A DNA stretch of 64,000 nt from Gracilaria domingensis (lineage: Eukaryota > Rhodophyta > Florideophyceae > Gracilariales > Gracilariaceae). The position numbers and the translations under genes are program-made. The notes under the pieces were generated by a model. That model was not told where the DNA came from, made no database searches, and saw only the letters and a program-made list of their open reading frames with translations. Numbering within the stretch: the stretch's first letter is position 1; every line of letters begins with the position of its first letter. Shown here piece after piece: positions 1,288-43,333 of this stretch. The stretch lies in the NCBI GenBank assembly GCA_022539475.1, contig VCMS01000301.1:1-64000 (forward strand), written 5' to 3'.

Positions 1288-1800
1288 TTAGTTGTTGGGC
1301 GTACCATTCGGAATAGGATGATTTTCAAACTGTCCTGGAGGGTTAGGGAAGAGAACCATATCGGAACGCGGTTCAAACGTTATGGAAAGATCAATATTAT
1401 CTCCAAATTCCTCGATGTGTAGAATAGCACTTTCAATTGTATTCAAGAATGTATCTCCGGGGTCCGGCGAGAGGTGACCAAACTGAGATACGAGGTAAGA
1501 GAATAGGAATAGAACGAGCTCTTCATGAATATCTTCAAGTGTGCCATCTTCATAAGCTTTGAAGAGCTTTCTTAGCAAGATCGCATTCTCTGGGGTTAGA
1601 AATGGTCCTCGAACTTGCAGAAAGGCAAAGCAAATATGACATGAGGCCCATGCAAGACGAAATCTCTCGAAAAGTTCATCGGTAATACCATCAAACCAGG
1701 TAAGCATCCTTCGTCCCCCAAGAACTGTACGACTGTAGAACTGACTGGCGTTGTCGAGTTGCAGATTGTTCGCGATGTTCGGCTGTCCGTTGTTCGTCAT
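1288..1800 (-). CDS. Accessory 170-aa protein at the 3' end of the chromovirus
   Basis: An ATG-initiated frame between the chromodomain and the 3' LTR, inside the retroelement. The protein is acidic, with hydrophobic stretches such as FLFSYLVSQFG, and Asn/Pro-rich ends. I find no retroviral domain in it. Ty3/gypsy elements usually end pol close to the LTR, so a separate downstream frame is extra. It could be an envelope-position accessory gene or captured host sequence. No signal peptide or transmembrane segment is evident, so I do not call it an envelope protein. Function unknown. Confidence 0.55.
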   Translation of the reverse strand: MTNNGQPNIANNLQLDNASQFYSRTVLGGRRMLTWFDGITDELFERFRLAWASCHICFAFLQVRGPFLTPENAILLRKLFKAYEDGTLEDIHEELVLFLFSYLVSQFGHLSPDPGDTFLNTIESAILHIEEFGDNIDLSITFEPRSDMVLFPNPPGQFENHPIPNGTPNN

Positions 1801-1835
1801 TGTTGGTGATGGGTGGTTACTGGGCCCGGAGATGT

Positions 1836-3278
1836 TCAGAGGTTGTGGCTTCTTTTATACTGCTCGAGGAGGTCAAAACAGTTTTTGAGTTCGGATTCAG
1901 GGAGCCACATATTTTCGTGATCGGGATAACCAAGCCATTTGACAAGGTATTCTGACATGCGTTTCCGTTTTCGATGATTAAGAATTGTTTGTACTTCATA
2001 TTCTTCTGTTCCGTCAGATAGTTTGCTGGCTGTGGGCTTTGGCTGTGATTTCCTCATGATAGTGTCCTCGTGGTATCTTCTGAGTAATTGACAGTGAAAC
2101 ACGTCATGTATTTTTCTTTGCTTCATGACAGGTCCTATATCAAGTCGAAAGGTAACTGGGCTCACTTGTTCAGTGATGATGAATGGACCGCAGTACTTGA
2201 TTCCAAACTTGTTCCGTGGGCCTGTTTCGTTCATCTTGAGGTTTTTAGTTGAAAGCATGACTTGGTCGCCAACTTTAAAATCGCAAGGCGTTCGTTTCTG
2301 ATTGTAGTACGTTTCAGAGTACTTGTTTATCTTGGAGATTTGGTTTCGTGCAAGCCTAACAGCCTCCGAGATACTTGTCAAAAAATCAGAAGCAGCTTGA
2401 TTCTGGGAGGTAATTATGTCCATTGGTAAAACACGTGGTTCTTCCCCATATGTGAGAAAGAAGGGAGTAAATGACGTGGTAGAATTGACTGAAGAGTTGT
2501 AGGCAACTTCAAATTGAATGAGATGCTCGTCCCAATTATTCTGTCTGTAATTGACAAAACATCGGATCATTTCTTCGATCTTCTTATTCATTACTTCAGT
2601 TTGTCCATCAGTCTGTGGGTGATATGCTGATGATGGCTTCAACTTTGTGCCAAGTGATCGGAATACTTCCTTCCAGAACTTACTCATAAATATCGAATCT
2701 CTATCGGATACTATGGCATCAGAAAGTCCATGATGACGATAGATATTCTCGAGATATAGCTGAGCAGTTTCGACGGCCGTAACGTTCTTGGTTGTGGGTA
2801 TGATACGTATTAGTTTCGAAAGGCGATCAACTACGACGTAAATGGCACTGTGTCCAGACTTGGTGCGTGGAATTGGAGTAATGAAATCCATTGTGATCTG
2901 AGACCACTTCTTCAATGGCGGTTCTAAGGGCTGGAGGTATCCCTGTGGCTTCTTGGTAATTGGCTTCGTCTCTTGACACCTCTGGCATGTTTTCGTGTAG
3001 GTGTATACGTCTTTTCTGAGGGTCTTCCAAAAGTATGATTTCCAAATTCTTCTTAATGTCTTTTTAAATGCCATATGTCCTGACGAAGGGATATCATGAT
3101 TCTCAAAAAATCTTAGTTCTGATTTCTCCACTCGGTACACACAGCTTATTCTTGAAATAGAGAAGATTACCTTTTCGTTCAAAGGGGAGTTCAGGGTTCT
3201 CGTATGAAGCAGAGAATTCGTTGTCATTCTTGTATCCTTCAGTGAATGCGCGCATATCCTTCTTAGATATTTCACCAA
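1836..3278 (-). CDS. pol: Integrase and chromodomain part of the chromovirus pol
   Basis: The integrase part shows the His-His-Cys-Cys zinc region (ending [10 protein letters not shown]). The catalytic core follows, with Asp in MDFITPIPR, Asp in SDRDSIF, and Glu in the [16 protein letters not shown] block. The tail carries a chromodomain with the typical [20 protein letters not shown]. Chromodomains of this group bind modified histone tails and guide integration. This is one part of the retroelement at 736-8050. Confidence 0.93.
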
Positions 3279-5460
3279 TAAGAGATAAAGAATTCAACGG
3301 GTTGGTTCTGGAGATTGCTTCATCTAATAGAGAGAGGTTACTAGCCAGCGGATCTTCAACATGCTTAGGATATCTTGAGAGAGCATCTGCAACTATGTTG
3401 GATTTTCCTTTGATTGGTTCGAAAGTGAAATCAAACTCAACGATCCTTTCGAGCCATCTTACTTGACGTTGGGAAAGATTTGGCTGTGTTTGCAGATACT
3501 TCAGTGGAAAATGATCTGTACGCACTTTGAAGCGTTGTCCATGTAAGTAGACTCTCCAAACTCTTAACGTGTCTACAACTGCAAGAAGTTCTCGCTCGTG
3601 GGCGGCGTAGCGTTGCTCGGCTGGATTCAGGGTTCTTGAATGAAATGCAACAGGTCGGGCAATACCGTTTTCTACTTGTTCCAATACTGCTCCTAGGGCA
3701 TACTGAGATGCGTCAGTGGTTACGATGATAGGCAGTTTCGGGTCAAAATGACGGAGCACTGGTGTACTTGAAACTGCTTCTTTCAGATTTGTGAAGGCGT
3801 TTTCTTGATCCCCTCCCCACTTGAATGGGTTCTTTCCACATAGAGCGGTTAGTGGTTTTGATATTTCGGAGCAGTTCTTAATAAATCGTCGGTAGTAATT
3901 AACAAGTCCAAGAAAAGCTTGAACATCAGTCTTATTCTTCGGTGTTTCCCAATTTGTGATGGCTTTCACTTTTTGTTTCTCTACTGATATTCCTTCGGGT
4001 GTAACCACATGCCCGAGGTATTCAACCTCCTTCTTTAGAAATTCACACTTTGAAAGCTTCCCATACAGCTTGTGTGCACGAAGTTGGTCGAATACTTTTC
4101 TAATGTGCTCCATATGCTCCTCTACAGTTTTGCTGTAAATAAGAATGTCGTCGAGATACACCAAGACAAATTTATCCAAATGGTCCTTAAGTACATTGTT
4201 CATTAAGCTCATGAAACTTGCAGGTGCGTTGGTGAGGCCGAAAGGTAGGACAAGAAACTCAAAATGACTATATCTAGTTCTGAAAGCGGTCAGTGGAATG
4301 GAGGTATTAGAGAGTCGAATTTGGTGGTAACCCCACCTTAAATCGATTTTTGAAAATACTTTTGCGCCACGGAGTTGGTCAAAAATATCATCAATCCTTG
4401 GAATAGGGTAACTATTTTTGATGGTCAACTTATTGAGGGCTCGGTAATCAATGCAAAGTCTTAGGCTCCCATCCTTCTTTGCTGCGAAAAGAACAGGGGC
4501 ACCCCAAGGGCTTGAACTAGGTCGAATAAAACCTTGTTCCAAAAGTTCATGGAGTTGCTTCTTTAGCTCTTTCAACTCTTTATCTGACATTCGATATACG
4601 CCTTTCTTCTGAGGTGTTGCTTCAGGGGATAACTCGATATGAAAATCTTGTTCTCGGTGAGGGGGTAATCCTTTTGGTAATTTCTCTGGAAATAGGTCCT
4701 TGTATTCTTCAAGTAGTTCTTTGAGTTTATGATCATTCGCTGGTTCATAGGTTTCTTCTTTTGAAGGCCGAAGTGCTACAACAAATACAGGTAGCTTCCT
4801 TCGAATTGACTTCTTGATTGTGTTCACAGAAATTAACTTCTCGTTCTTCTTAATGTTTGCTTTGATGAAAATGGTTCTGGAATTGTGAACAAAAGAAATT
4901 TCATTGGTTCGGTGGTTGATATAGGGGTTATATTCATATAGCCAGTCTTTTCCTAAAATGACGTCATATCCGTATAATGCACATATTGCAAAGCGTCTAT
5001 TTTCTCGTAGTTCTTCAATCTGGATATCTACTCCATCTTCTCGGGTTTCCTGGAGCACAGTAATGGAACCGTTGGCCATTTCGGCTTCATAACTAGTGTC
5101 AATGGTTGGGATCTTCATGCTTTTGCAGATGGCTTTGGACAAATAACTGATTTCGGAACCGTTATCGAACAGAGCCGTACATTTTCTGCCATTGATGAAT
5201 ACATATGCAAGGAGTAGTCCAACAGAAGGTGTTTCAAATGGTGACGCTAAGCGTGAGGTAAGAAGTTTATGTCTTCCATTGCTTAATATTTTTTCTTGGG
5301 TACGATGTTTATCTGCAGATTCAATGGGTACGGGGTTTGCTGGCTTAGTCAATGGTTGCGTTTCGATGGAATTCAGTGGGGTGCAATGGTGGTCCGGTGG
5401 AACTGACGTGGGTTCTTCAGATGACCCTGGAGTCAGTTCCTCTGGGAGTTTTTTGGGCAC
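3103..5460 (-). CDS. pol: Protease, reverse transcriptase and RNase H part of pol
   Basis: From the N-terminus on the minus strand: an aspartic protease motif ([12 protein letters not shown]), then reverse transcriptase with [13 protein letters not shown] and the YLDD active-site box ([14 protein letters not shown]), then RNase H with [15 protein letters not shown]. The order is standard for Ty3/gypsy. The start overlaps the end of gag by a few tens of bases, as expected where this family shifts frame between gag and pol. Confidence 0.95.
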
Positions 5461-6347
5461 TGTTTATCGCGTGCCATGTGTCCAGGTTGTCGACAGCGGA
5501 AACAGAGTCCCAACTTTCGACAGTTCTCGCGCTCTTCCTTGGTTAACTTCTTCAGCTTCATATTTCCAATATCCATGGGTACCGGTCCTTGAGATGATCC
5601 AGAGCCGCCAGGTTGCCTGCCAAATCGCGCCTGTCCACCCCTTCGGAAAGCAGATTCCACCCACTCAGCGTCTTTCATTGCATTAGTCAAAGATTTGTAC
5701 TCATTGGTGCAAAGCTCTTTCCAGATGTAACTTTTCAAGCCTCTGGTATATCTGTCGATTTGCTCTTCCATACTGATGTTGGGGATTTCAAGCACAATCT
5801 TGAGGAAGTCTTCATTGAACTGTTGAACATCTTTGAACTGCTTCCACTTGCTTAGTTTGTCCCGAGCAAGTTTCTCTTTGTTGACAATAGTAAATCGTTT
5901 CTGAAGATGTTCAAAGAGTTCCTCAAGGGTTTGCAGCTCCAGTCCATTTCTTTGCTGGGCGAGATACCACTCATGAGCAGCTCCACTGATGTAACTAAGC
6001 ACGATCGTTAATGCTTTGTCGTCGGGGGTTCCATCAAGATAATTGCGAATATGAGTGATCCAACTGTCAATGTTTTGCTTTCCAGTGAACGTTGGGGGCT
6101 TGTTGATCTTTGGATTCGTGGCTGGGCTGTCCTTATTGGCTAGGACACTGAGTGAGGTCTCGAGAGCGGATATCTTCGTTTGCGCTTCTTGCTTCAACAA
6201 TTCCATCTGAGCCCGTGTTTCATCAAGCGCGCGAGCCATGCTTTGGATCATTTGGCCTGCACGCACCTGTGGGGGTGTGCCTGGGTTGCCTTGAGGGGTC
6301 GTCATGGTATAAGCTGCGCGAACGGAGAACCTTTGAAATTGGCTCAA
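5433..6347 (-). CDS. gag: Gag of the chromovirus
   Basis: A capsid-type region ([20 protein letters not shown] and following) precedes a CCHC zinc knuckle near the C-terminus ([17 protein letters not shown]), which binds the element's RNA. The length of about 300 residues is normal for Ty3-type Gag. The start is preceded by the tRNA-like leader segment and the zinc-finger frame described separately. Confidence 0.93.
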
Positions 6348-6456
6348 ATCGGGGGGTTGCCAAAATAAATTGTCTAATTTTTCGAAAAGTGCAAATCAAG
6401 CCTCGCGCTGCCACTTTTAAAAAATTGCAATTTGCAGGTTGCAGACAAGCAGTGCC

Positions 6457-12242: not shown

Positions 12243-13955
12243 TTACTCTTCATCATCATCGCAAACTACTTTGTTACACCGCCTCTTTCGCTTCCTAGTT
12301 GGAGCAGGCGTCGTGGACATGCAGTCCTCATCCCCACGCGCACTGTTTTCATGGTTCTCGTGATGGTCGTTCTCTATCAAGTCCTTCACTTCCTTTGGAG
12401 AGGTCAGTGAGTTCTCCATTCTGTCTTCCTCTTCCACGAGTTCCTTCATTTCTTCTTCTCGCAATGCTATACGCTCCAGTTCTCTGTTACGCAGGTCACA
12501 AAGATTGAAAGGAAAGGCCAAGGTTCCTCTCTAGAGCTCTTCAAAGCGATGAAAAGGTACGTCGTCGACGATCCATTGCGGTTTTCCATTGACTCCCATC
12601 ATTATCTGCCCCTCCTGACTCAGTTCATCTGTTTTCTTCCACTCCTCGTCGGCCCTCGTACCGTCCATGCGTGCAATAGGATTTTGTATGAAGATTTGTG
12701 CGAGTGATAACGCCCCAGGCAGCACATCATACATATCTTCCACCATACGACTACGGAAGTCGTTGTTGAGTTCAACGTTCACTAGAGTCGGTATTGTTCC
12801 AATCATAAACCCATTCGTATCAACATCTGAGTAACCAGCGAGAAGCTCTCCTTCTTCCAGGCTCCTTGAGTCGAGGAAGGTAACGTTCGCTCCATACTCG
12901 CAAAGGTTCTCTACCAAATCACAATGTTCCTTTGCGTAGAAATCGTAGTCTTCCTTTGTCAGAGTCTCTGTTCGAATCACGCATCCAACCACTAGAATTG
13001 CCAGCGAATCATGACCCCCAATACGAACTGCGAAAGTGCTTGGCAATACAATGCTCGAACCGATCGTCAGAAACATTGTGCGTACTGCAGACTTGTCCAT
13101 TGCCCCAAATGCGGCCACATACTCGTAGAACAAACCGTCTTCTCCCTGTGACCCCGTATAGCATCTTACTATTCTCTCGGTTACTGTGAAAAACACTCCT
13201 GCTCCCTCTACACTTTGCTCAGAAAGAGCTCCTTCCACTGAGGGTAATACGGTATAGATAATGAAACTGCCACACTTTGTGTTCTCCGACGCTGACTTCG
13301 GGTTCGGCACCCATCCGTCCCAGGCATGAGTACTGCTCTCAAGTACTCCCACAGATCTTGAAAACACCCAACCCCCGTCCTTCCCGACGCCTGCAACATC
13401 ACGCCCTGCATCAACGACGCGCAGAAAGTCTCGCATCCCGCCGCTCTTTGGGACACGAAGTCCGATTCGGCAGCATACTTTAGAGACGAATGCAATGTCT
13501 TGGAAAGTCGGAGATCTATCGTTGTCGGCCCCGTACAGTGCCTCTCTCAGCCCGCGCTCCAGAATCAGGCCCAGTACATGCTGCTGCGCAACTAACATGG
13601 ATTCAAACATAGCGTTAGTATCGGGTCTTGTCCCCATTACGTACAACTCAGACTGAATTGCCAGCCCGACGCACTGCTCTTCCAGTTCCAAAGGACACTG
13701 AGAGCAGCTTGGATCTACGTTGAAATCCCCGTGTTCCTTAATCATTTCCGAATATTCTGCAAGGTCGACAAGTTCTGTGAAGGATAGATCTAACATTGCC
13801 GTTCCGTATCCCAAACCATGAATAAGCCCTTCGTACGACGCTTTCCAGGCGCCGCTTACACATTTTTTCGCATCAGATCCATCAATAACAAGCGCTTCTC
13901 GGCCATCAGCAAGAATTGCAAGAGGTCTCTCGGCATTCCCGATAAGCATAGACAT
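12243..13955 (-). pseudogene. Unidentified protein gene with an in-frame TAG near its 3' end
   Basis: An ATG at 13955 begins a 474-codon frame that meets TAG at 12531-12533. The same frame stays open for 95 more codons to 12243. The extension looks like real protein: a Glu/Arg-rich helix (LERIALREEEMKELVEEE), a basic nuclear-localisation-like RKRKRR and an acidic end. The main part has Cys clusters (SCSQCPLELEEQC) and no domain I recognise. It diverges from the protease-like gene at 14467, with about 500 bp between them. The pair may belong together, either as host genes or as cargo of a mobile element. Function unknown. Confidence 0.5.
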
Positions 13956-14466
13956 GGGATTCGGATTCTAGGATAACGAGGGAACAATCAAGGTGTATCG
14001 AAAGTGAGAACTTCAGAGAATGGCACAGCGCCACGGAATTATTCACTCCCGGGACCTTCGCAGCAGTTCGTTCGAAAGCCAAGAGCGTTGGCTTTAAACT
14101 CATGGAGTCCATTTCTCTTGAAAAGGTGTCTCTTTCTTCCAGTCTCAGTTTCTTTGACAGTCAGGAAATTTTTCTAATCACAGTAATCTTCATTTTTCGC
14201 CCACTTCCTGACCGTTTTACAATTTAAAAACGCCCTCAATAGATTTAGGAGACTCAAATTTACAGTTCCTGTACCTCCCCCCGCGGACCCCCCCTGGTTG
14301 GGGGGCGGAGCCCAACAAACCCCCCTTCGTTCTGCTCGCATTTTTCGTTGCGCACAGCTTGGCCGATTGAACCGACATTTTGGCTCCTCGGCTCACGCCT
14401 CTCTCGTAGTTGTATGCAATCTTTCTACTGCGTAGAAGTATCTCTTTACCATCCGTATCGGGCTCA
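13956..14466. promoter_or_regulatory. Shared intergenic region of a divergent pair with a GC-rich hairpin
   Basis: About 500 bp lie between the two divergent starts. At about 14285-14305 a run CCCCCC, a short loop TGGTT and GGGGGG can form a strong hairpin, inside a wider C-rich tract. A role in transcription is inference from position only. Confidence 0.35.
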
Positions 14467-16493
14467 ATGGATTTAAGCAATAACTGTGACTTGTCGGACG
14501 CTGAAAGTGAGGATGAAGGTCTGCTTGACATGGCCCAAGAACTTTCCACACTGACCGACAAGGTCTATCGCCGCATTCAACAGGCGCGTACCTCTGCTAT
14601 CCGCATCGCATATGTAGATTTGTTCATTGGGCCTCTGATGGGGCGCAGTACATCTTCAAAAAAGGTGTCATCCCTTGCCCAGGAGATCCGGTCCAGTTAT
14701 GAGTATCACTTTTCTGAACCGCTGATTGTTATACGATTCATGCAGAGAAGGTCATCTTTGTGGAAAGCTTCTGGTTCTCGGCGGTGGTCATCGCCTGCTT
14801 ACCGGTGCGAGACAGAAGAACATGCTACTCTTTCCTTATCAAGAAGTGGATCTCTCTGATCTCGAAGACTCTGGAACTCCGTTACACTTCCGCCGACATG
14901 AGTTTATGCTCATGCATCACCTTCAGGCTTCCGAGCTTCGTCCAGATGGATATAGAATTATGGAACAGGTAGCTCTCTACGGGGTACTTCGCACATATTG
15001 GCTGTGGAAGGAGAAGAAGCGCATTACTAAACTCCAACTCACAAGACCCAGCGATAGACCGAAAGCAATCACACACCGAAAGCTGTACGCATTGTACGAA
15101 ATCCTGTACAGGCCCGCAAAGCGCAGACGCAAGCACGCAATTTCCTTTCTAAGTAGCCCGGTGCATAAGACACGCGTTTGTTATATGTCCGGAGCAGACA
15201 GGTTGCTCAAGGCGAAGGTTGTGCGGGATTTTTGCTTTCTTGAGAGCTTCGCCAACACCAAGTTTGCCCTCACAACTTTGAACACAGTACGCCACTGGTC
15301 TGCCGTTAAGATTCGAAACGCAGTGAACAAAATGTTCAATGAACTGGAGAGTGGAGGAAGCACAGTGCTCAAATTTGTGGATGACCGGAAGAAGCGCTCC
15401 AAATCAAGAGGTCGTTGGGCAAAGCGGTCTTCCGCTAAACAGTCCCCCGCTAAACCGCCTCCGTCTCCAGCAGCATACAATGAAACAGCTGTTGTGAAAT
15501 CCAAGCCACCAGTAGGCTGGGAGCACTACATGAACTGGACTGCAAATGGTGATATGGAAATGTTGGACGAACTGGGTCGTAAGTTGCAGGAAGAGGACGA
15601 TAAGTTTAAGAAAGAGATTGGCTCTACGGTTGTAGTCATTGACGATAACAAGGAAAAGCTGCAAGTCGTGGAGAACGTTCGTCAGACAATGATGTCGAGG
15701 ATGAGGAAAGGCGAGACTGCATTCGATATTGCAAAGCTTGTGACAGAAGAAGCGTCAAAGTTACAATCTGAAGTAGACAGAAGTGGTACCTTGGTTGTGA
15801 ATGGCGGAGTACTACAAGATGAGCTGAAGCTAAATCGAAGGGATGTGACGTCTATCACTAATCTAAGCTGGGCCACCCCTCAAGCCGTGTTGTACACCAT
15901 GTTTTTCTTGAGTAACTGGACTTTACCAGGCATGAAAGATGTCTATGTATTGGATCCAGTACTCACGCAGGGATGGTGGGACGAAGAATTGGTACCTGGT
16001 AGTGATTCGTTCTCCAGCAGAGAGGTAAGAGTGCGTATGCATCCTCTATCGAGAACCAACAAACATGAACTTGTCTGGAGATCAAAAGTAACGTTCATAT
16101 TCATGTGTGGACGTAGGCATTGGACATTGGCCGTATTATTCGATCTCCCAACTCTCTTGGAGCACTTGCAGAACAATTCTGACTTTGAAAAGTCGTCTTT
16201 ACAAATCAAAGCGGGCAAGATGCCTAGTCTTCGACATTATTGACAAAGCTAATTCTCCACACTCGAAGTTAACGAAGAATCTCGTTCGATACTTGTGCTG
16301 TGCAAAACCCGGACCTACTCTAACCGAGGAAGATCTGCTCGCAAACATGACGGTTCACGAGCATCGGAGAAAGCTCCAGAGAGGAGCGGAGTGTGGTTTC
16401 TTTGCAACATACCATGCCTCGCTTGTTTTGTGGAACATGCAGCTATTCCGCATTGCAAATGCAACGCAACGGAGACATTCTCTTACTGATTAG
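14467..16493 (+). pseudogene. C48 (Ulp1/SENP)-like cysteine protease gene, frame-disrupted
   Basis: ATG at 14467 (MDLSNNCDLSDAESEDEG) begins an acidic N-terminal region. A long basic middle contains KKRSKSRGRWAKRS and several Lys/Glu-rich helices. The last part carries the protease signature: His in GRRHWTLAVLFD, Asp in VFDIIDKAN, and the Cys box RGAECGFFATYHA. These three residues are in the order of the Ulp1 family, which removes SUMO-like modifiers. The gene runs through three frames, with switches around 14730-14850 and around 16210-16240, so it is probably a pseudogene unless introns explain the switches. Ulp1 domains are often carried by DNA transposons, and the divergent partner supports that possibility. 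No transposase is seen nearby. Confidence 0.55.
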
Positions 16494-17134
16494 TACGAAA
16501 ACTACTCTTTTACTCGCTACTCTCACGTAATACAAAGCCGAATGCGGGTAATGCACTTCAAGTGCACGAGAGGTGGCTTTCAAACGGTCCAAAGTAGCGT
16601 TTTTCTGTCGGATGATGATACCTTTGAGCACAGTGCAATTGAGACTGCACGGGAGGACGCACAGCTGGCAGGCAGCAGATATGAAGATCAGAAGAACACG
16701 GCGAAGGATTATCCTTCCAGCTGCACAAGAAGCAAAACCAGAAGTACTGAACCGAAATAGAAAATAGGCATATCTGAGACGGTCAGGCCCGCTGTAGAGC
16801 ACGACGCCCAAAGCACAGATTCAGGGACAAAGCACTTGTTTGCACATGATGGTTCTTCAGCCTTGCCCCAGCTAAAAACGACAGAGGAGAATGCGGGCAG
16901 TTTACGACGGTCTTCAAAGGTGAATCAGAGTAGCGTGGTACAGGCCCTGGTTAATTTTTCTATCCGAACAGGAATTGAAAGCCAGTATTAGAACGATATC
17001 ATGAAGAGAGTAATGGAAGACCCCAAAATCCATAGCGCAGCACACTCACGGACGGAACTAATGACATTATTCAATCGATCTCCGATCTTACTCCAATTAT
17101 CGAGCGCCATATCAAAGACGCCCAACGTCGAATT

Positions 17135-17395
17135 ATGGAGACCTCGAGAGCCACGAGCGATATGAGTAATGCCCTGCGACCATCAAAAGGACCACATTCA
17201 TCGGTGACAACTACAGCGGTACAACGGACTACCGAACACATTAACACGGATTTCGACGTACCATCAACCGTTGTAGAAGGAGTGCTACTGATCAAGGAGA
17301 GCGATGATGAAGGCATTCAGAAGGAGTGGCTGGAATGTATGGAAAAAGCCAAACGTCTTATTGACCAGGCGAGGAAGATGAGAAGACCCAGTTAA
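17135..17395 (+). CDS. Small hypothetical frame
   Basis: An ATG-started frame of 86 codons, open upstream from about 17040 as well. Polar sequence with a basic end (RLIDQARKMRRPS). It lies downstream of the protease-like gene in a frame that gene also uses, so it may be its distal end. No domain recognised. Confidence 0.3.
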   Translation: METSRATSDMSNALRPSKGPHSSVTTTAVQRTTEHINTDFDVPSTVVEGVLLIKESDDEGIQKEWLECMEKAKRLIDQARKMRRPS

Positions 17396-17399
17396 TGGA

Positions 17400-18170
17400 A
17401 ACTGTGGTAAATGAAGTATTTTTCTTGAGAACTTTGCGCCCATTTCATATTATCTCAGGTCTGATTCTCTTCAGCGTCAAGCTACAGCGTTCAATTCTAC
17501 CCTATCTGTTTCCGATGTGCCCTCATATCGAGTTTGCTCCCTGTTCCAAAATGGAGGAAACATTCCTCCATTTTGGACAACAAGCTTAATTTCCCAATAA
17601 TGGTGCAAAATTCACAGCGCGCAAGGGTACATTTTAATCGAAGAGTTATAATTGTCTCTTAATTTTTCGGCATGGATAGATGACGTCATTATTGGGCAAA
17701 TGGACACATAATCAACGCCTTCGTTTTTATTTCAACTATTTCAGATCATTGACCATATTCGATTACTTGGTTTTTGCTCCTTTCATCGCGTTCGGCTACA
17801 ATGATATCAGGATCAGCAGAGGATCAGAAAGCCCTCTCCTATATATGTGGTTATCATCCCTCCATACACACTTCTGTGTTAATTATGACTATGTATTATT
17901 TATATTTTCGGCATATATATTCCATCCAATTTTTTTGGACATTGGGAGCTGGAAGTAATGGCGATACGACTGCGCCTTACCTGTTGATGTTCCCCCGCGG
18001 AAATTATCTCTTGCCAAAGTTGTGATACACTGTGGCCCATGATTCCGGTGTTGACGCATGTGATACACCTCTAGGTTTCAGTAAGATGACCTGATCCCTT
18101 GATTAGGCGTCAGGGTCACCTTCACGTTTCGCTACATTTATTTTCATTCTCGTGCTGTTATTCCAACGCT
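17400..18170. other. AT-rich leader of the palindrome-bounded element
   Basis: Apart from the palindrome at 17545-17577, no gene is supported in this stretch before the ATG at 18171. Confidence 0.5.
17545..17577. repeat. Left boundary palindrome
   Basis: Perfect 15-bp arms at 17545-17559 and 17563-17577 surround ACA. The core matches the right-hand palindrome at 25 of 27 positions. Confidence 0.9.
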
Positions 18171-20693
18171 ATGCCAACCGTTGCTGTCGTCTCATCGTCA
18201 CTGTCTGGTGACCGTGGACCAATATCAATCGGAGTCAACACGATTGGAATGCTTCCGATCTGTATTGAGTGCAAGTGTGGAATTTCTTCTCAACGAGCAT
18301 TGGAAACACACCTAACCCAAAAGCACTGCATCAGTGCAAGCCAGTCTCGTGATGCTTCCGAAGCTGTTTTCGCTCGTAAGAAGGAGATGACGTCAGCCAT
18401 GGGCTGCTCACCTTTTTGGCCCTCGTACCTCGCAGCACCTCAAAAACTGGATGAGCCTTCCCCACCCACTTTGGATCCCCTTCTTTGCCTGGACGTCTGC
18501 AATGGCTTTCAATGCGACAGGTGTCTTTCTTGTTACACGGATAAGAAGCCACTTGCGGTTCATTTGCGCAAAGCACACAATGTTACGCTTTTCAGAGGGT
18601 CAAATGGAGGCATTGCTGAACACAAGGAGGTGAAAGTGCAAAGGATTTTCTCCACTGGGAGACTCCGGCGGTACTTCTCTGTATCGATGAACAAAACGAT
18701 AGGTGAGCTCACTGTCGTCTCCAATATCGACAGTTTGGTACAAATTACTCCTAACGAAGTCAGGAACTCTTCAGATCATGACGATACAATTGCAGATAAT
18801 TCGAACTCAACTCAAGGCGAAGATGCTCGTGTATCAATGGCTTCATCTAAAACCGAAAAAATGTTGAACGGTTTCTGCAGTAACGAAGAAGGAGTGAACG
18901 TTCAAGATAAGCTCAAATCAACTTTTGTGTCTATATCAAAAGTTGACGATGTTCTGAAGGCACGTAGTAAATCAATGAATGTGGTTCATTCACTTGCGTC
19001 GATCGGACAGAGCGATCCACCCTTCCACTGCATCTCTGCGGACGTCAATAGTTATTTGGAGACCATACCAAAGCTCACTCTCGATATTCCGCACTCAGTC
19101 CTTATTTGGTGCAATTTGAGATCGAAAGGGGAACGTCGTGATCATTTCCGCACCGTTACTGAGAAAACCAGAAAGCAGTACGCCACAGAGCTTTGCCGTT
19201 TCATACTTTTCCTTTACCGTGCACTTCAACTTCGGCCTGACATCGTGGATCAGGGAACTCTTGCGGTGCTTAAGGAATATATGGCATTGTGTTCATCCAA
19301 AAAAGTCTCTATCATACTTCCTAGTACGAAAAAGAGTGATTGCGAAAGGTTGAAGCCCCTACATGAGCTTTTCAAATCCACTCTTCTGAAACATTGGCCT
19401 TTGTGTCAGTCTACAGCCCGTATGGACGTGAAGACATTCTTTTCGTGTAGATGTGTGAACGATGATGGTGGAGAAAGGTACAGATTCCACGAAGCATGGG
19501 AAATAACAAAACCGCTTGCAGCTCTTCAGTACGCTATAAGCTGCTGCGCGATTGTCGAGGTTCATGTTACCAACCAAATGTTGCAGGCAAACCCTTGTGA
19601 TGACGCGATATATGAGGCTCGATTCACCAAGATTAAGGATGCTGTTATGGTCAATCAAAACACAGTCGCGTCCTATGTCAGGAGCATGCTCGATTGTTCT
19701 ATGGGTCTTCTCTATCAAGAAGATATTGATGTATCATTTGAGGCATGCCTACATCATTCGTATTGTGGAATCGTCAGGGATACTCATTTGTCTCTCAAAG
19801 ATCTTGGAAGAAAGGTTTCTAAGTCTCATAGGAAAATTGAGGACCTGTTTTCGAAGCTCTTGTTTGGCAATGGAATGCCCGATGGATTTCAGAGTCAGAT
19901 CGGATCCCTACACGATGATCTGAGTGAAAATTCTATCGGTTTTTCTTTTCTTTCGTACCAAAGAGAACGTCTTTGGATGAAGAAAAATATTGCACATGTT
20001 CTACTCTTCCTTCAAGTCCCTGGTACTTCGGAGGAGGTAAACGGTTCTGCTCCAAATGAAGATATCGTCACTCTCTTCGGATCAAAGATGCGTAAATCAG
20101 TCACGATCGAGTGGATCACTCGTTGTCAGGAGCTCCAGCGACAGCTTTTATTCTGTATTCACATTTCTTCGGGATCTCTAGCTCGAGCAACGGAGTTGTC
20201 GACGTTGCGCTTAAAGAATGATACATATGGCATGCGGAACATCTTCATGTCTCAAGGACGGATAATGATCATCACCAGATGGTCGAAAACCAGAAATTTG
20301 AAAGGATTTGCTCATCCGATTCCACGATTTCTAGATCAGACGACCAGTGACCTATTCATAAAGTATCTAATGCTTATCAGATCTTTGGAGACATCGCTGG
20401 TGGGACTATTTCACGGAAGAGATGCTGCCGCTTTTCATTGGACGCGATTGTTTGTCAATAATGGCGTGCCGACTCAAGAGGCTCAGATACGGTCTGCTAT
20501 TTCGAAGGAGCTCTTCTTCAAAGACATTCAATTGAAATTCAATGACTATCGCGGGTATAACGTCGGTATGGTTCCTTTGGTGGCGGAGGGTAAAGCTCAA
20601 AGTCTTATTGAAGAGATTCGAAAAAATTCTTGCTCTATTGGACACGAACAGGCCGGTCATAGCTTCGAAGTTGCGGAGAGAGCTTATGCATGA
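18171..20693 (+). CDS. OrsD-type C2H2 finger plus tyrosine-recombinase-like protein
   Basis: From ATG 18171 the protein shows a C2H2 finger at residues 31-52 (C-x2-C-x12-H-x4-H). A second C-x2-C/H-x4-H pair follows (FQCDRC and HLRKAH), then KVQRIF and RYFSV as in OrsD-domain proteins. The middle is all-helical (TRKQYATELCRFILFLYR), like a core-binding domain. The last part resembles a tyrosine recombinase: Arg in SLARATEL (box I), a Lys in TRWSKTRNLKG, Arg in NDYRG, and AGHSFEVAERAYA. In that last motif GHS and Tyr have the same spacing as GHS and the nucleophile in XerD-type enzymes. The first box-II His is replaced by Asn. A TGA follows two codons after the putative catalytic Tyr, and the helicase continues in the same frame. 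The recombinase call rests on motif reading alone. Confidence 0.6.
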   Translation: MPTVAVVSSSLSGDRGPISIGVNTIGMLPICIECKCGISSQRALETHLTQKHCISASQSRDASEAVFARKKEMTSAMGCSPFWPSYLAAPQKLDEPSPPTLDPLLCLDVCNGFQCDRCLSCYTDKKPLAVHLRKAHNVTLFRGSNGGIAEHKEVKVQRIFSTGRLRRYFSVSMNKTIGELTVVSNIDSLVQITPNEVRNSSDHDDTIADNSNSTQGEDARVSMASSKTEKMLNGFCSNEEGVNVQDKLKSTFVSISKVDDVLKARSKSMNVVHSLASIGQSDPPFHCISADVNSYLETIPKLTLDIPHSVLIWCNLRSKGERRDHFRTVTEKTRKQYATELCRFILFLYRALQLRPDIVDQGTLAVLKEYMALCSSKKVSIILPSTKKSDCERLKPLHELFKSTLLKHWPLCQSTARMDVKTFFSCRCVNDDGGERYRFHEAWEITKPLAALQYAISCCAIVEVHVTNQMLQANPCDDAIYEARFTKIKDAVMVNQNTVASYVRSMLDCSMGLLYQEDIDVSFEACLHHSYCGIVRDTHLSLKDLGRKVSKSHRKIEDLFSKLLFGNGMPDGFQSQIGSLHDDLSENSIGFSFLSYQRERLWMKKNIAHVLLFLQVPGTSEEVNGSAPNEDIVTLFGSKMRKSVTIEWITRCQELQRQLLFCIHISSGSLARATELSTLRLKNDTYGMRNIFMSQGRIMIITRWSKTRNLKGFAHPIPRFLDQTTSDLFIKYLMLIRSLETSLVGLFHGRDAAAFHWTRLFVNNGVPTQEAQIRSAISKELFFKDIQLKFNDYRGYNVGMVPLVAEGKAQSLIEEIRKNSCSIGHEQAGHSFEVAERAYA

Positions 20694-20714
20694 ACACGGG
20701 AAGAGCTTTATGAC

Positions 20715-22241
20715 ATGCACAACTTCAAAATCCACACATACCGCCAGTTTTCGAACAAGTGGCATGAACTTCTAGGACTATTGGTCGGTCGTAAGACTAA
20801 CCTATGCACTGATGACCTTACCGTCCTGAAGAAACCCAAACTTTCCCACAGCAAGCAAGAGACGGTCCTAAATTTCCATGATGGAAATCAAGATCGCTCT
20901 GCTGAAGATGTTAGCCTTAAACGAAGCCAAAATGAAATGGGTGTGCTGCAGAGCCAAAACAGTTTTGACTACGGTCGTGTTCTTCGAGGAGGATCCAACT
21001 TCCTCGTCGCTGATAAGCAACATTGCTCAGTCGGTACCACATTAATTGAAGAGGACCCCAATAAGTACGAACATATATTGCCGTTCCTATTGGGAGAACT
21101 GCGAAGAATGGTGAAGGACCCTGGTGCAAAGTTCAAATCTCAAACGCAATACAACGTCACTGCCGCCGTGACCGAAAGAAGAGAAAACGCCTTTGCCGTG
21201 ATGCCAACTGGAGCTGGGAAGTCTCTCTGCATTTTACTACCAGTTTTCATGGCTCGTGGTTCTCTCTCAACCATCATCATAGTCCCTCTGGTCTCTTTGG
21301 TGCGGGAGTTCGAATTAAGGGCTGCAACTCTTCATATTTCAACCTGCACAAATCTTCCCACCCCTGATCAAGCAGATCTTTACATACTGACACCAGAGAA
21401 GCTGAGAGGAGATTCGTTTACGCAACTGATCTCCCGACTTTTGGAATCAGCCTCACTGGCACGGATTGTTATAGATGAAGCTCATCTCACCAGCATGTGG
21501 TCCAACTTCCGTCAAGCTCTTCGAGATATACGTTACGCTCTAGCCAGGATTCCGTCCGGTATTCCTAAAGTTTTCCTAAGCGCAACAGTGCCGCCTACCG
21601 AAAGAAACGATATTGTTGCCGTTCATGGGGAACGTCGGGCTACGTTATTCTCTATGCCAACGGTACGAAAGAATTTGGAGTTTTCAGTATTCCGCAAAGA
21701 CTTGGGAACATCAAATACCGGGCGATCATCTGGTGGAAGATATACAGACGCTCAGCAAGAAATGTTACAGGCTACCGTGAATACACTGAAACAAGAACTG
21801 GAAAAAATTTCCCGTTCTGAAATGCTGGCCTATGGAACTGACGGTGAGGCCATGCCATTTTTCCGGGTTCTCGTATATGTTATGCAGAGGAAGAATGTGG
21901 AGCAGTACGCAGATGTGTTGAGTACATCGTACCTCGATGTATTCTCTTTTATCACAGATGCAGATTCAAACCTTGATTTAAAGGTTAGTGTACTTCAATA
22001 CCACGCTGCAATGGATTCGAGAACTAAAGAAAAAATGTATGAAGTTTGGCGCACCCCCAAATGCGCACGAACGCAAGAACACTCTTCTAGATCAGTAAGG
22101 ATTGTGGTAATGGTTTCCACATGTGCTTTTGGAGCAGGTATAGATGCCTCAAACGTTCGGCTGGTATTGCATGTCGGTGGTTCGACCTCCTTGAAAGACT
22201 ACGCTCAAAAGGCAGGTAGGGCTGGGAGAGATGGACAATAG
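20715..22241 (+). CDS. RecQ-type SF2 DNA helicase
   Basis: An in-frame ATG at 20715 lies 21 bases after the TGA of the upstream frame. Helicase motifs in order are Walker A (MPTGAGKSLC), DEAH (VIDEAHL), SAT (FLSATVP), and the motif IV-like YHAAMDSRTKEKMYE. Motif V/VI is STCAFGAGID with QKAGRAGRDGQ. These belong to the RecQ family, which unwinds DNA 3' to 5'. A TAG at 22239-22241 falls directly after AGRAGRDGQ, where related proteins continue with residues like GRCIVLY. The window does continue with that sequence in the same frame. The Q-rich spot suggests a CAG-to-TAG change. If translated separately, the helicase would lack its C-terminal domain. Confidence 0.85.
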   Translation: MHNFKIHTYRQFSNKWHELLGLLVGRKTNLCTDDLTVLKKPKLSHSKQETVLNFHDGNQDRSAEDVSLKRSQNEMGVLQSQNSFDYGRVLRGGSNFLVADKQHCSVGTTLIEEDPNKYEHILPFLLGELRRMVKDPGAKFKSQTQYNVTAAVTERRENAFAVMPTGAGKSLCILLPVFMARGSLSTIIIVPLVSLVREFELRAATLHISTCTNLPTPDQADLYILTPEKLRGDSFTQLISRLLESASLARIVIDEAHLTSMWSNFRQALRDIRYALARIPSGIPKVFLSATVPPTERNDIVAVHGERRATLFSMPTVRKNLEFSVFRKDLGTSNTGRSSGGRYTDAQQEMLQATVNTLKQELEKISRSEMLAYGTDGEAMPFFRVLVYVMQRKNVEQYADVLSTSYLDVFSFITDADSNLDLKVSVLQYHAAMDSRTKEKMYEVWRTPKCARTQEHSSRSVRIVVMVSTCAFGAGIDASNVRLVLHVGGSTSLKDYAQKAGRAGRDGQ

Positions 22242-23201
22242 GGACGTTGTATTGTGCTTTACTCCCCTCTTTTGGCGGATCGTTTTCAAGGTCAACTGCA
22301 AAAGATTGATGAGGAAACACGTTCGCAAGGAAGTCATGGGAATCTAGTAGAATGGTTGAATATGAGAAACTGGATGGAGAATACCACACTCTGCAGAAAG
22401 AACTGGCTTCATGTTTTAATGGATGGAACGTCACCTGGAATGTGCATGTTTGATGGTCTTTCTCGCAACTGTGATGTATGTCTGAAACTCTGCAACGCAG
22501 ACCTGTCACAAGAAAAGCACTCTCCATATTCTTGTTCATCTACGGAGGCTTCGAAGAAAGTTGAGAGAAGTCCTGAGAAGCTACCAGTTCCTATTGTGAC
22601 TCTATCGGAATCTCAGAGCGCACCTTTCTCTGAGATCGTTTCTCAACCAAGTGCCATTTCAATGTCATTGTCCCACAACATCATGCAGTGTGAATCAATT
22701 GCCACAGAGTTTGATATGATGTGCCTCCTCTGCTTCATATCTACTGGAAAGTATGTCCGTCTAGTCGACCATTCTTACTGTTCCTGGAAGGCTCGTCGTT
22801 GCTTTCAATGCCACTCGGCTGATCACGGATGTAGATCATGTCCGAACAAGATGAAGCCTGCCAACGGAACATGTTTTCGGTGTGGAATGGGCGACAGTAA
22901 GGGTCACAGGGTACATTCGGAGGAAATGGGTTTCGGGAATTCTTGTAAGCTTGAGATTCTGCGAACTCTAGGATGATATCTCTGGCGCAAAAGCAAAGCA
23001 TTGAGAAAAAAGGTGGTAGAAGATCTTTTCGATGACCTGACTGCGCAGCGTTACGGGTCGATTGAAAAATCTGAGTCGAACACTCCATCTTCCCAAGAAG
23101 ACTTGTTTATGGCACAGTGGATGAGTAGGAAAACGAGTGACACCCCAAATCTGCTCATTCTCGGTTCTTGGTGGACAACGGTTCGTTCCAAATGCGATTG
23201 A
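22242..23201 (+). pseudogene. C-terminal part of the RecQ-type protein with Cys/His-rich tail
   Basis: Continues the helicase frame after the TAG, starting GRCIVLYSPLLADRFQ. It contains several Cys pairs (CDVCLKLC, CLLC). A dense Cys/His block follows (CFQCHSADHGCRSCPNK and CFRCGMGDSKGH), resembling zinc knuckles found at the end of fungal finger/RecQ proteins. A third in-frame stop, TGA, occurs at 22974-22976. The frame then stays open to 23201 with LRKKVVEDLFDDL and following. No frameshift is seen anywhere between 18171 and 23201, about 1,680 codons. Confidence 0.65.
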
Positions 23202-23279
23202 GTATTAACGGAAACATAATGCAAAGTCAAGGCCAAGTGTAACAAAGATCAATAGAGCATCCTTTTGATTAATGATCAT

Positions 23280-23313
23280 TTTGAAATGGAGGAAACTTTC
23301 CTCCATTCTGAAA
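23280..23313. repeat. Right boundary palindrome
   Basis: Perfect 11-bp arms (AAATGGAGGAA-type at 23285-23295 and 23297-23307) surround a single C, with further partial pairing outward. It lies about 80 bp after the last stop of the helicase frame. Confidence 0.88.
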
Positions 23314-24159
23314 GACAGCTGTGGGGAAATGGCTTTGGTCTCAGACAATGTCCCAGCTCAGTTGACTGGAGTGTTTGGACATGATCGTCGACAAATAGCA
23401 AACAATCATTGCAATAAAGATTCAGAGTGGTTGCCACACATGGCAAAGCGACATAGTTCACCAAGGCAGCAGCAAAAGTGGCCAAACATTTACTTTGTAG
23501 TTTATGTCATATAGGTAGCTTGAACTGCTTTCGGCATCCTCCGTCAAATATTAAAGTAACGTAAGTTCTTGACACTAACAATCATGGATTGCACTACTTG
23601 TAACATGATTCTGGCTTGTCACCTGAACGTAAGAGGCAACCACCGGTTCTGCCACCGATTCAAAGCCCCTACATTATATTTGATTCCATAGCGTTAACGC
23701 TTGTGCGATTTCAAGGCGAAGAAATAACGGAAGAGCTCACATTCAATGGTTCTAGAGCTCTGAATCATTAATCATTGATTCCAGCCAAATCAACCGGAGC
23801 GCCGTGGCTCCTACTTACAGGACCAAAAAATTGGAAATTTCTTTTGATTCAAACAGCATCCGTACAGTAAGGTAAAACCAAACATTCGCTCTATAGAGCC
23901 TGGAATCAAAGCCCGGCGTAAGTGTCCATTGATTCCCTTACATGGCCGAACGCATCTAAAATCATTGATTCCATAACGAAGATATTAGTAGGTTCAAGCG
24001 TCTTCGAAACCATATATTTCGGTACTCAATTAGCCACCAATGTCAGCCCCTAATCCCCTAATTTGAGACCGTTAAGCCCCTAATCAACTTTCCTCAAAGC
24101 CCCCGACAAGGTATAACTAATCCCCTAATCCCCTAATTCCCTAATCCCTAAATCCCCTA
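23314..24159. repeat. Intergenic stretch with recurrent CATTGATTCC and TTAGGG-like repeats
   Basis: The 10-mer CATTGATTCC occurs at 23773, 23928 and 23963, with a variant at about 23679. From 24046 to 24160 the sequence is dominated by CCCCTAAT, CCCTAATC and close variants. On the other strand these read TTAGGGG or TTAGGGA, resembling eukaryotic telomere repeats. No gene is supported. Confidence 0.65.
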
Positions 24160-25170
24160 ATGTATGAAACCCTCTCTTCTAATTTGAACTCTCGCGCGTT
24201 TAAGAACGGTTTCCGTTTGACACGGGAGGAATTTGGGATTCTCTATTCTCGGGTTGGCCACTGTCTGACCAAAAGCGTCAATATGGAAGCACGAGCTGAA
24301 CGACCTGGTATTACACCACATACCTGCCTGGCAATCACTTTACGGATGTTCGCAGGGTCTAGTTACGGCGACATAATGCTTTCATTTCATGTAGGTAGAT
24401 GTGCGGCCTACCATGTGTTCCATCACACTCGAAAGGTTCTGATGCATGAGTTACCTCTCCCAGACCTCTCGCAGTCGTTTCCAGATCTTGAGGAGCTCGC
24501 GCTGGAATTCAAACATTCTAGGAAGAGGATAAGCACTCTCACGGTTTGCGTCGGGGAAATTGATGGGATCTCAGTGCATATGAAGAAGCCGTTATGTCCC
24601 AATGCTGCGGGGTTTTATTTTCGTAAGAACTTCTACTCCCCACCAGTCCAAGCGCTGGTGGATTCGCACTATCGCTTTCAAGATGTTTTTATCCGATGCG
24701 TGGGCTCGAGACTGACCAATTGGCTCAGGCTGTTTCTGCACTTGGACGATGTCTTACTAAAAACAATCTTAGAGCTTAGTATTGGATTGCTGGTGATGAC
24801 GCTCATGTTTGTTCTAACAGTCTAGTTACTCGTATACTTATTTCGCAGCCAAAAACGCGTTGGCAAGATCGGATTCAACTTTTATTTTTCCTCCCTACGG
24901 ATTCATGTAGAACAGGATTTTGGTATGCTGGTTGACCGATGGCGGATTCTGAACTTCTTATAGTTCTTACTGAATGTTAAGTGTGAAATTGTCGCCGTCA
25001 GTATGAAGCTACATAACTTCTGCATCGATCAGAGACCGTCTGCTTGCAAGGATATCACGGAAGAAGAGGTGTGTGATGGCAATCAGAACGTGCGCTCCGT
25101 TCATGGTATGAGTGTTGCAAGGAGAGGCATGCGGATTGGGTACCTGTTGGGGATGACGAGGCAGAAGTAG
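24160..25170 (+). pseudogene. PIF/Harbinger transposase, decayed
   Basis: The DDE nuclease of the Harbinger superfamily (DDE_Tnp_4 type) is recognisable. A helix-turn-helix-like start (LTREEFGILYSRV and TLRMFAGSSYGDIM) is followed by the first catalytic Asp in GEIDGISVHMKKP. Then come FYFRKNFYSPPVQALVDSHYRFQDV, a GDDAH block in another frame near 24790, the third acidic residue in VEQDFGMLVDRWRIL (about 24895-24945), and a final LHNFCID. The region moves between frames around 24715 and 24855 and has stops near 24823 and 24960, so it is inactive. No terminal inverted repeats or TAA-type duplication were identified with confidence. A separate Myb-like partner, usual in the family, was not found. 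Confidence 0.85.
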
Positions 25171-29325: not shown

Positions 29326-31321
29326 AGTGCGCAAGCTCTGCAGAGAAAGGAGGACGCTGATATTAATTCTAAGGATCAGGGGTTCGGAAGTCCAGGAGGG
29401 AATCAGAACGACCGAGTCGGTGCAGCACCGTCAAAACCTAGTGGAAACGATGATAGAAAGTCAAGTAAGAGCAAGAGGGCGAGGAGAAAGCCCCAGTACG
29501 CCCGTCGTCTTGTATTAGAACCAGTGCAGGGTCTCTACGATCGATATGTGCTCCAGCTCGATTTCAACTCCCTGTATTCTTCATTTATCCAAGAGTTCAA
29601 CATCTGCTTCACAACTTTGCACCTCGATGAGAACCGAAATCAAGACGGTAGAAATGCGGGTGTGACTCTCGGGCCTGGAAATGACGTTCTGGAGCGCAGA
29701 ACGGTTTAAACGGTATGCTTCCACTTCCGAATCCTAGCCCTATAGAAGGGATATTACCAAGAGACCTCCGAAGTTTGGTGGAGCAGTGGGAGCAGGTCAT
29801 GAAACTTTTGAAAGAGGAAAGGCAACGTTCCGGGAAGGAGACACTGCGAGCTCAGCAGTTGTATACCGGCAACTGGCAATCAAGTTGACAGCTAATTCTT
29901 TTTTTGGTTGCACAGGTTTTGAAGGGGTGCACTTTTACGCTCAACTGTTGGCTGAGATGGTAAGTTGCCAAGGACGCGGTACCATTCAGAAGACTGTTGA
30001 CCTCGCACGAGATACGTTCAATGCAAAGGTCATACACGGCGATACTGGTTCACTGTTCGTTTACACGGGCATGGAAAGCATCCAGCAAGTTTGGAAACTC
30101 GGCACTAAGCTCAAGAGGGAGGTCACCAAGAAATATTGAACTTTGGAAATGGAGATCGATGAGATCCACAAGAATATGCTACTGCTGAGGAAGAAGAAGT
30201 ATTTTGCCCGGAAAAGCATTCTTGATCCCGCCAAGCCCGACAAAACCGTTAGCGAAGTGAACGGAATTGATCTCGTGAGGCACGATTGGTGTGACTTATC
30301 GCACGATGCCTCCGACCATTTTCTTGATCAGATCATCCACAACCAAAGCGTGAACATCGACGACTCGGTTGGCAACTTCCTCTCTTACCTCAGCAATCCC
30401 GCCTCCCGAGTGAAGAACAATGAGCTGTCGTTATCAAAGTATATCATTACAAGGGCTTTGAACAAAAGGGCAAAGGACCATCCCGAAGGACATAGTACAC
30501 CACATTTGGCGGTTGTCATGCGAATGATCAAGAGGGAAAGGCGAACTATTGGGCCAGGAGAGTACATCAAATACTTCATATGCACTCCGGCAGATGGAGA
30601 TACTTTTGCCTCCGGTGTAGCCTCCCGAGCGCATCATCCGGATGAGGTGAAAGCCTCTGAAGGAATGCTTGGCATGGACGTGAAGTATTACTTGGAAAGC
30701 CAAGTTCTCCCGCCCATCCTCAGATTGTGTGATCCGATCGAGGGCATCGAGGCGAGTCGTGAAGCGGTATCGCTAGCATTGGATGGCAGACCATTTAAGA
30801 AAAGAGATGATGAGTTGGATGGTTACAATGATTACTCTGCATTTTGAACACATTGAGGAGCCGAGAAGTTCAGCGACGTCGACGGTTTGATGATTACATG
30901 CGGTTCATGCTGTGCGGGGACAGAATTCCTCTGTGTGCATATCGAATCTTCAGATGATATGAAGAGCTCCGGTCTACAACGCGCGAACTGTATCATGCGC
31001 TTTTCTGGCTACCGGCTTCATAACGTCATTTTTTTCAGATCACGTGAATGAGTTCGCAAATACTACACATGCGAGATGGTTATTGACTCTGAAGATGGGT
31101 CATGAAAGAAGGAGACAAAAAACGTCGGATTGGGAGCCAACAGACTGCTGGAAAGGAGAACATTTAACAAAGCGTGGTTGTACAAACAGTTACGGTACCT
31201 CAAATATCTCTTGGACGTCAAGAAACGGTGCGAAGAGGAGGAGAACAGGAAAATGATGGACTTCAGTCTCGCTCAAGTTCAGAAACTTATTTCCACGTAT
31301 GAGAACAGCGGAAGGGGATAA

Positions 31322-43017: not shown

Positions 43018-43333
43018 GTTGTTCTTTGCAACAAGAGAAAGTTTGGTTGGTAAATGCGGGGGATTGCGGGCTGCAGCAGTACATTGGTTGAGGAGAACAC
43101 AGAAAACTTCAGCGCGAGGCAATGGAGACGGATATCAGAGAAGTGCGCCAGTGACTCTGGGAAGCTAAAAGAACAGCGCCACGGCGCAGTGGGGTGTGGT
43201 GGAAAATCGGGATTATAAACTCTCATGCTGCGACAGTGGTGCGCTACTGGAACGTAGTGTCAAAGTGAGGAGTCTCCAGGTCCTTGAAGGACACAAACGT
43301 ACGTTTAGGAGCCACTGGCTCTGTGTCAGTACT

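Follow-up and report, generated by a model that had tools for sequence, protein, structure and literature searches.

A decayed multi-gene unit, probably mobile, that carries an OrsD–recombinase-like–RecQ gene in the red alga Gracilaria domingensis

The first 64,000 bases of contig C301 of Gracilaria domingensis (bases 1-64000; VCMS01000301.1 in assembly GCA_022539475.1), referred to here as the window, contain a unit that carries at least three genes: gene A, a Ulp1/C48-like protease gene, and a gene in which an OrsD zinc finger, a region resembling tyrosine recombinases and a RecQ-type helicase are fused (Table 1). Searches were carried out against the whole 77.9-Mb assembly of 680 contigs; C66, C211, C275 and the like are other contigs of this assembly, and C275a, C275b and C275c are separate copies on C275. 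For the fusion gene, the genome searches score best candidates only. Mobility of the unit is supported by two copies of 97% identity with unrelated flanks and by a sharp right end at eight places, and the account that we hold to be probable, by a little, is that of a decayed, low-copy DNA transposon of Crypton-like type, composed of gene A, the protease gene and the fusion gene.

Table 1. Positions in the window of the unit, its genes and its sequence features, with the loci of related gene pairs elsewhere in the assembly
Feature	Position	Strand	Remarks
Whole unit	12383..23992	+	97% identical to C66; ends on the right at the sharp end of the family; left limit provisional
Gene A, 478 amino acids	12534..13967	-	Divergent from the Ulp1-like gene
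Ulp1/C48-like protease gene, broken	14726..17395	+	Frame ends at 16243; C-terminal piece 17036-17395 separate; pieces aligned
Left palindrome, 33 bp	17545..17577	.	Core 17549-17575; follows the Ulp1-like stop by ~155 bp
OrsD zinc finger–recombinase-like–RecQ gene	18171..23201	+	In-frame stops at 20691, 22239 and 22974
OrsD (C2H2) region	18255..18581	+	PF12013, 27.1 bits
Tyrosine-recombinase-like region	20080..20690	+	R 20184, K 20286, R 20550, H 20658, Tyr 20685
RecQ-type helicase core (DEAD, Helicase_C)	21144..22235	+	Pfam
Right palindrome	23284..23310	.	Starts ~84 bp after the fusion-gene stop
GATTC/GAATC array, 9 units	23607..23971	+	Precedes the right end; densest place in the window
Right terminus TTAGTAGG	23985..23992	+	Six diverged copies stop at 23992
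11 gene A–Ulp1 loci	C66, C211, C333 (two), C405 (three), C2, C100, C454, C275		

The fusion gene had been outlined in a preliminary description of this DNA as one coding frame, enclosed by two palindromes, with a C2H2 finger, recombinase-type residues and a RecQ helicase. The helicase is clear in the window gene (Pfam DEAD, 3e-16; Helicase_C, 2e-9), and RECQ5 structures came up at 1e-80 when searched with the family profile. The finger falls in a region of OrsD type whose score is borderline, with 26.1 bits in one scan and 27.1 in another at a cut-off of 26.6. The frame is not a single one, being cut by the three in-frame stops listed in Table 1, and the window copy is decayed; in the C66 copy the frame is open for 1384 codons and is then broken. 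Named relatives are from Alternaria, Didymella, Penicillium and Coniosporium, which together with the gene content would suggest a fungal source. OrsD was detected by Pfam scan in 21 of 32 relatives, and one family protein, P0045, consists of OrsD and the recombinase-like domain without the helicase.

The R, K, R and GHS-x8-Tyr residues named in the preliminary description are present in the window frame, at positions derived from the numbering of the C66 frame, to which C301 aligns without gaps over 840 codons. Comparison of 16 full-length relatives gave 16 invariant columns, including R672, K706, R794, H830 and Y839 (C66 frame) as well as helicase residues D1102-E1103. A 37-row alignment (A2) combined the piece from C66 with family proteins of the set P0002-P0045, of which 36 of 44 were included and P0015, P0021, P0027, P0031, P0032, P0035, P0039 and P0043 were left out; both arginines and the lysine occur in all 37 rows, the histidine in 35 and the tyrosine in 36, with P0013 and P0033 deviating. 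Two further sets, A3 and A6, hold 12 domains hand-picked from A2 plus C184 and 32 of the 44 family proteins, respectively. As had been noted earlier, the H-x8-Y spacing equals that of XerD (H270 to Y279). A combined pattern of box I and H-x8-Y was found in 43 of 46 family proteins (P0002-P0045, P0185 and P0186, the misses being P0013, P0033 and P0044) versus none of 19 other RecQ-type matches. When aligned by hhalign to Xer, Fim and P2 proteins, the domain was matched at box I with a score of 25.0, compared with at most 18.6 for 60 shuffles and 11.8 for the reversed sequence. The matches listed for a search with XerD were confined to its close relatives and carry no weight here. On the strength of the conserved residues, fusion of a tyrosine-recombinase domain to RecQ is probable, so that this part of the preliminary description stands in qualified form, the profile matches being weak.

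Selection on the genes was compared through the ratio of nonsynonymous to synonymous substitution rates (dN/dS). Between C301 and C66, where changes are few, this ratio is 0.98 for the recombinase half of the fusion gene (0.66 in its last 200 codons) and 0.41 for its helicase half; gene A has a ratio of 1.11 and the Ulp1-like gene one of 0.70. The fusion gene of C66 gave 0.16 against C275b and 0.13 against C275a, with synonymous sites near or at saturation; the low ratios between distant copies indicate that selection acted on the fusion gene in the long term, the C301 and C66 copies having mostly drifted since then.

Window positions 12383-23994 match C66 at 97.0-97.4% identity in three pieces (blastn), and the flanks of the two copies are unrelated on both sides, so that the C301 and C66 copies cannot be a single locus present in two haplotypes. 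A query of 315 bp, taken at the unit's right side, was matched at 8 places in the assembly, namely C301, C66 (97%) and six diverged copies at 71-74% (C31, C277, C12, C298, C275 and C49), all six of which end at query base 313, corresponding to window position 23992, ~680 bp past the right palindrome. The right ends on C31, C277 and C12 are not mutually independent, because the outer flank beyond them is common to all three at 93-94%; 48 bp of that flank are also found in C49. The last 435 bp of the unit contain 9 GATTC/GAATC units in C301 (window mean, 0.85) and 6-12 units in all 8 copies. At C66, the right end cuts off another reading frame of OrsD type exactly at the boundary (C66:241303-242004, +; 44.1 bits). 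This frame resembles residues 23-193 of P0005, and the remainder of the gene was not found on C66. The left limit at 12383 is provisional and is not accepted as a proven end, because its counterpart in C66 is separated by 12 bp from a piece of a repeat that also occurs at window positions 56761-57959 and at C275a. The repeat, of ~1.2 kb, is seen beside the left limit of the C66 copy and at C275a, where the Ulp1-like gene is cut.

Gene A could not be assigned to a known family: no Pfam, NCBIfam or PDB match was obtained, the sole PHROG match had an E value of 0.34, and a search of viral contigs returned nothing. The Ulp1-like gene has an intact paralogue on C211 that encodes 1094 amino acids and matches Pfam Peptidase_C48 at 22.4 bits (cut-off, 20.7). 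It lies upstream of the fusion gene at C301, C66, C275a and C275c, although at C275c the fusion gene is reduced to its first 55 residues. Homologues of gene A adjoin Ulp1-like matches in divergent orientation at 11 other loci (Table 1), and five further gene A fragments (C337, C382, C12, C329 and C310) have no Ulp1-like match nearby. Over 4.4 kb, the pairs on C211 and C405 are 100% identical and that on C333 is 99.75% identical. The divergent pairs at C211, C333, C405, C2, C100 and C454, some of them near-identical and none with a fusion gene detected among the best candidates, may represent a younger sister element with another enzyme.

The two 27-bp palindrome cores agree at 25 of 27 bases, as first described. 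RNA folding gave -23.2 kcal/mol for the left and -13.8 kcal/mol for the right palindrome (z of -6.8 and -2.6), with shuffled sequences as good in 0/200 and 3/200 cases, respectively; hairpins in themselves are no rarity, 5 of comparable strength being present in the window, two of which score higher (33853 and 49815). The exact core AATGGAGGAAACNTTCCTCCATT occurs 4 times in the assembly, twice in C301 and twice in C66, where the pair is 5,739 bp apart. When as many as 2 mismatches were allowed, a shorter core, ATGGAGGAANNNTTCCTCCAT, was found at 8 places, C301 (2), C66 (2), C49, C275 (2) and C35, versus 2 places for a control pattern; a longer form with up to 3 mismatches gave 7 places versus 0 for its control. 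Seven of the 8 places lie within copies of the recombinase–RecQ family, which bears out the view that the palindromes belong to the element. The eighth, at C35:61899-61926, came from a match of 86% to 37 bp around the right palindrome; no element gene was seen in the 2.2 kb around it, and it may be a left-over site or a chance match.

The positions of the palindromes relative to the genes recur among copies. Distances from fusion-gene stop to right palindrome in C49 and C275a are similar to that of the window, C275b has a hairpin of related sequence ~30 bp after the fusion-gene stop, and degenerate right forms are in place at C31, C277 and C12, with none seen at C298. On the left, the palindrome of C275c lies ~60 bp after the Ulp1-like stop, and C275a has a degenerate form at the equivalent place. 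Three further long hairpins with arms of 15-23 bp were seen upstream of the C275b fusion gene (C275:39001-48500). The palindromes are internal, each following the stop codon of one plus-strand gene, and the comparison of copies supports their link to the element family at two homologous places. They were ruled out as ends of the element, since homology extends 5.2 kb further left, leaving the Ulp1-like gene and gene A outside the left palindrome, and ~680 bp further right. The preliminary description had proposed a self-mobile unit bounded by the palindromes and had named beforehand their absence from the ends of other copies as refuting; they are absent there, which goes against it as worded. 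The mobility of the unit is supported.

The transposon account given at the outset takes as established the dispersed copies, the one sharp right end, the recurring gene set, the conserved R/K/R/H/Tyr residues and the palindromes at homologous internal places. In it, the fusion protein would be the transposition enzyme. The account as a whole gains support from oomycete Cryptons, in which a C48 peptidase next to a recombinase is already known (PMC3212892; this and the other published sources are cited from excerpts). The tyrosine of the fusion protein would attack DNA at the element ends, with the GATTC array bound by the zinc finger or the N-terminal part, and excision and insertion would proceed through a circle of Crypton type. 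RecQ would open ends or hairpins or help replication, and the target of the C48 protease would be SUMO or a protein of the element itself. The palindromes would serve as 3' hairpins of two transcripts or as internal sites that release the recombinase gene as its own circle. The former is slightly favoured because both follow stop codons, and a role as recombinase sites is kept in view because their letters, not only their pairing, are conserved; action of the recombinase on them is possible.

Several results weigh against this account. The left end, terminal repeats and target duplication of the unit were not found, and among best candidates no fusion gene accompanies the gene A–Ulp1 pairs at C211, C333, C405, C2, C100 and C454. 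Support for the recombinase from profiles is slight: hhalign assigned its alignment a probability of 4.5%, and the best Xer profile score among the 46 family proteins was 3.5 bits versus 1.7 on reversed sequences. Of the 37 rows of A2, 3 have the box II histidine. In the profile searches proposed by the preliminary description, in which RecQ was clear and OrsD borderline, Phage_integrase matched 1 of 12 domains below the cut-off (E 8e-4, over the stretch leading into the second arginine) and 1 of 32 whole proteins (E 0.0093). A PDB search with the domain returned no recombinase, and weak DDE_Tnp_1_2 matches were seen in 3 of 32 relatives, the best at 0.027. PHROGs and NCBIfam likewise gave no convincing match for the domain (a PHROGs integrase in 1 of 12 at 0.15), and viral contigs gave nothing for family protein P0003.

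Two other explanations divide the unit. The palindromes could be core sites of the recombinase, with 13-bp arms and a 7-bp asymmetric centre in the same orientation, from which the gene is released as a circle, making it a cassette separable from gene A and the Ulp1-like gene; this we regard as possible while leaning clearly against it. It agrees with the 11-13 bp arms and 6-8 bp spacer of tyrosine-recombinase sites (PMC3212892), with the retention of sequence, not pairing alone, at two places in copies that differ by at least 30% around the palindromes, with gene A–Ulp1 pairs that exist without a detected fusion gene, and with the palindrome on C35, where 2.2 kb showed no element gene. The C35 match could be due to chance, however, given 2 places for the control pattern, and a single base sets the centre of the left palindrome apart from that of the right. 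Moreover, both sites come after stop codons, as expected of 3' transcript elements, the family's sharp end lies elsewhere, and the palindrome searches of the assembly found no single-palindrome site after a Ulp1-like gene. A junction of two elements, one made of gene A and the Ulp1-like gene and the other of the recombinase–RecQ gene with the right end, we think rather unlikely. Pairs of gene A with the Ulp1-like gene are more frequent, include near-identical copies and have no detected fusion gene, and right ends on C31, C277, C49 and C298 occur without a Ulp1-like match on the contig, but the order and orientation of the Ulp1-like gene relative to the fusion gene are kept at four loci and a palindrome follows both genes. 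The absence of the fusion gene near C211 also covers just 1.5 kb downstream, and the limit to best candidates applies here as well.

It is improbable, in our judgment, that the window holds an ordinary repeated RecQ gene of the fungal OrsD/telomere-linked type, spread by segmental duplication, whose recombinase-like residues are an old inactive remnant. RecQ genes of this type are repeated near fungal telomeres (PMC10532341, PMC4522978, PMC7473861), the recombinase profiles are weak, and both close copies, C301 and C66, are broken and drifting. Nevertheless, the five catalytic-type residues belong to the small number of columns that are invariant over the full protein, which does not fit a remnant, and neither a sharp right end nor an insertion that interrupts a further frame of OrsD type fits plain duplication.

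The nearest published parallel to the transposon favoured here appears, from the excerpts of PMC3212892, to be the oomycete Cryptons that have C48 next to their recombinase. CryptonF-2_PS and some CryptonS elements resemble the unit in having a tyrosine recombinase, putative in the window, as the sole candidate enzyme and a C48/Ulp1 peptidase within the element, the peptidase being represented here by the Peptidase_C48 match of the C211 paralogue. In the window, by contrast, the recombinase-like domain shares one protein with an OrsD zinc finger and a RecQ helicase, and a GATTC array marks the right end. Cryptons lack terminal inverted repeats and have 4-6 bp direct repeats at both ends; for the window unit the right end alone was located, and no inverted copy of its terminus (CCTACTAA) occurs anywhere in the window, left side included. 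A GCR1_C domain has been shown for CryptonF (PMC3212892); it is absent among Pfam matches of the C66 frame and among the 25 families listed for 32 relatives.

Pfam scans of the unit's three genes found no DDE-type transposase. Academ/AcademH and KolobokH elements have a DDE-type transposase and inverted repeats, whereas neither was found in the window unit. Their likeness to it lies in encoding a RecQ-type or other helicase (PMC3627910, PMC10799480). Starships, described in excerpted accounts for Pezizomycotina, are fungal mobile elements with a tyrosine recombinase and are far larger than the window unit. The Starship captain belongs to DUF3435, for which there was no Pfam match at E values up to 0.5 or 1 and no entry among the 25 families listed for 32 relatives. 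The fungal telomere-linked or OrsD-type RecQ genes of Ustilago (UTAS), Metarhizium, Agaricus and Mycosphaerella share with the fusion gene an OrsD region, a RecQ-type helicase and repetition in the genome, OrsD having been linked to RecQ genes in Ustilago and Metarhizium (PMC10532341, PMC11457142). They differ in that no recombinase domain appears in the excerpts of their descriptions, in one of which the helicase core is the sole domain found (PMC10532341, PMC11457142, PMC7473861, PMC4522978). Among the matches listed for open-access titles and abstract starts, none described a fusion of this kind, with OrsD, a recombinase-like domain and RecQ in one protein. No telomere array is present at the first bases of contig C301; a short CTAATCCC array lies at window positions 24117-24161.

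Other features were noted in the window. Just right of the element (24117-24825, +), the CTAATCCC array is followed by an open frame with no Pfam match at 0.1, which has the look of a PIF/Harbinger protein. Open frames at 1288-6395 (-) resemble by eye those of a Ty3/Gypsy-type retrotransposon (gag, reverse transcriptase, integrase), and hAT transposase remains lie at 40660-43134 (-) (Pfam Dimer_Tnp_hAT, 1.5e-6, in the piece 40663-41658). A gene fragment for a family B DNA polymerase at 30140-30847 (+; Pfam, 8.5e-34) is probably a host gene.

A wider proposal, which we offer as speculative and consider unlikely as it stands, is that the whole class of fungal OrsD–RecQ ("telomere-linked helicase") proteins combines a tyrosine recombinase with RecQ and supplies the enzymes for a superfamily of mobile elements that has gone unrecognised. 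Here these proteins would be accompanied by C48 and would act on conserved internal palindromes that free the recombinase gene as a circle. If a recombinase domain does lie between the OrsD finger and the helicase, the repeated RecQ genes of fungi, whose spread at chromosome ends lacks an accepted explanation, would be self-mobile. In such a protein a strand-exchange enzyme and a helicase would be naturally fused, and C48 proteases would be tied to recombinase elements outside the oomycetes.

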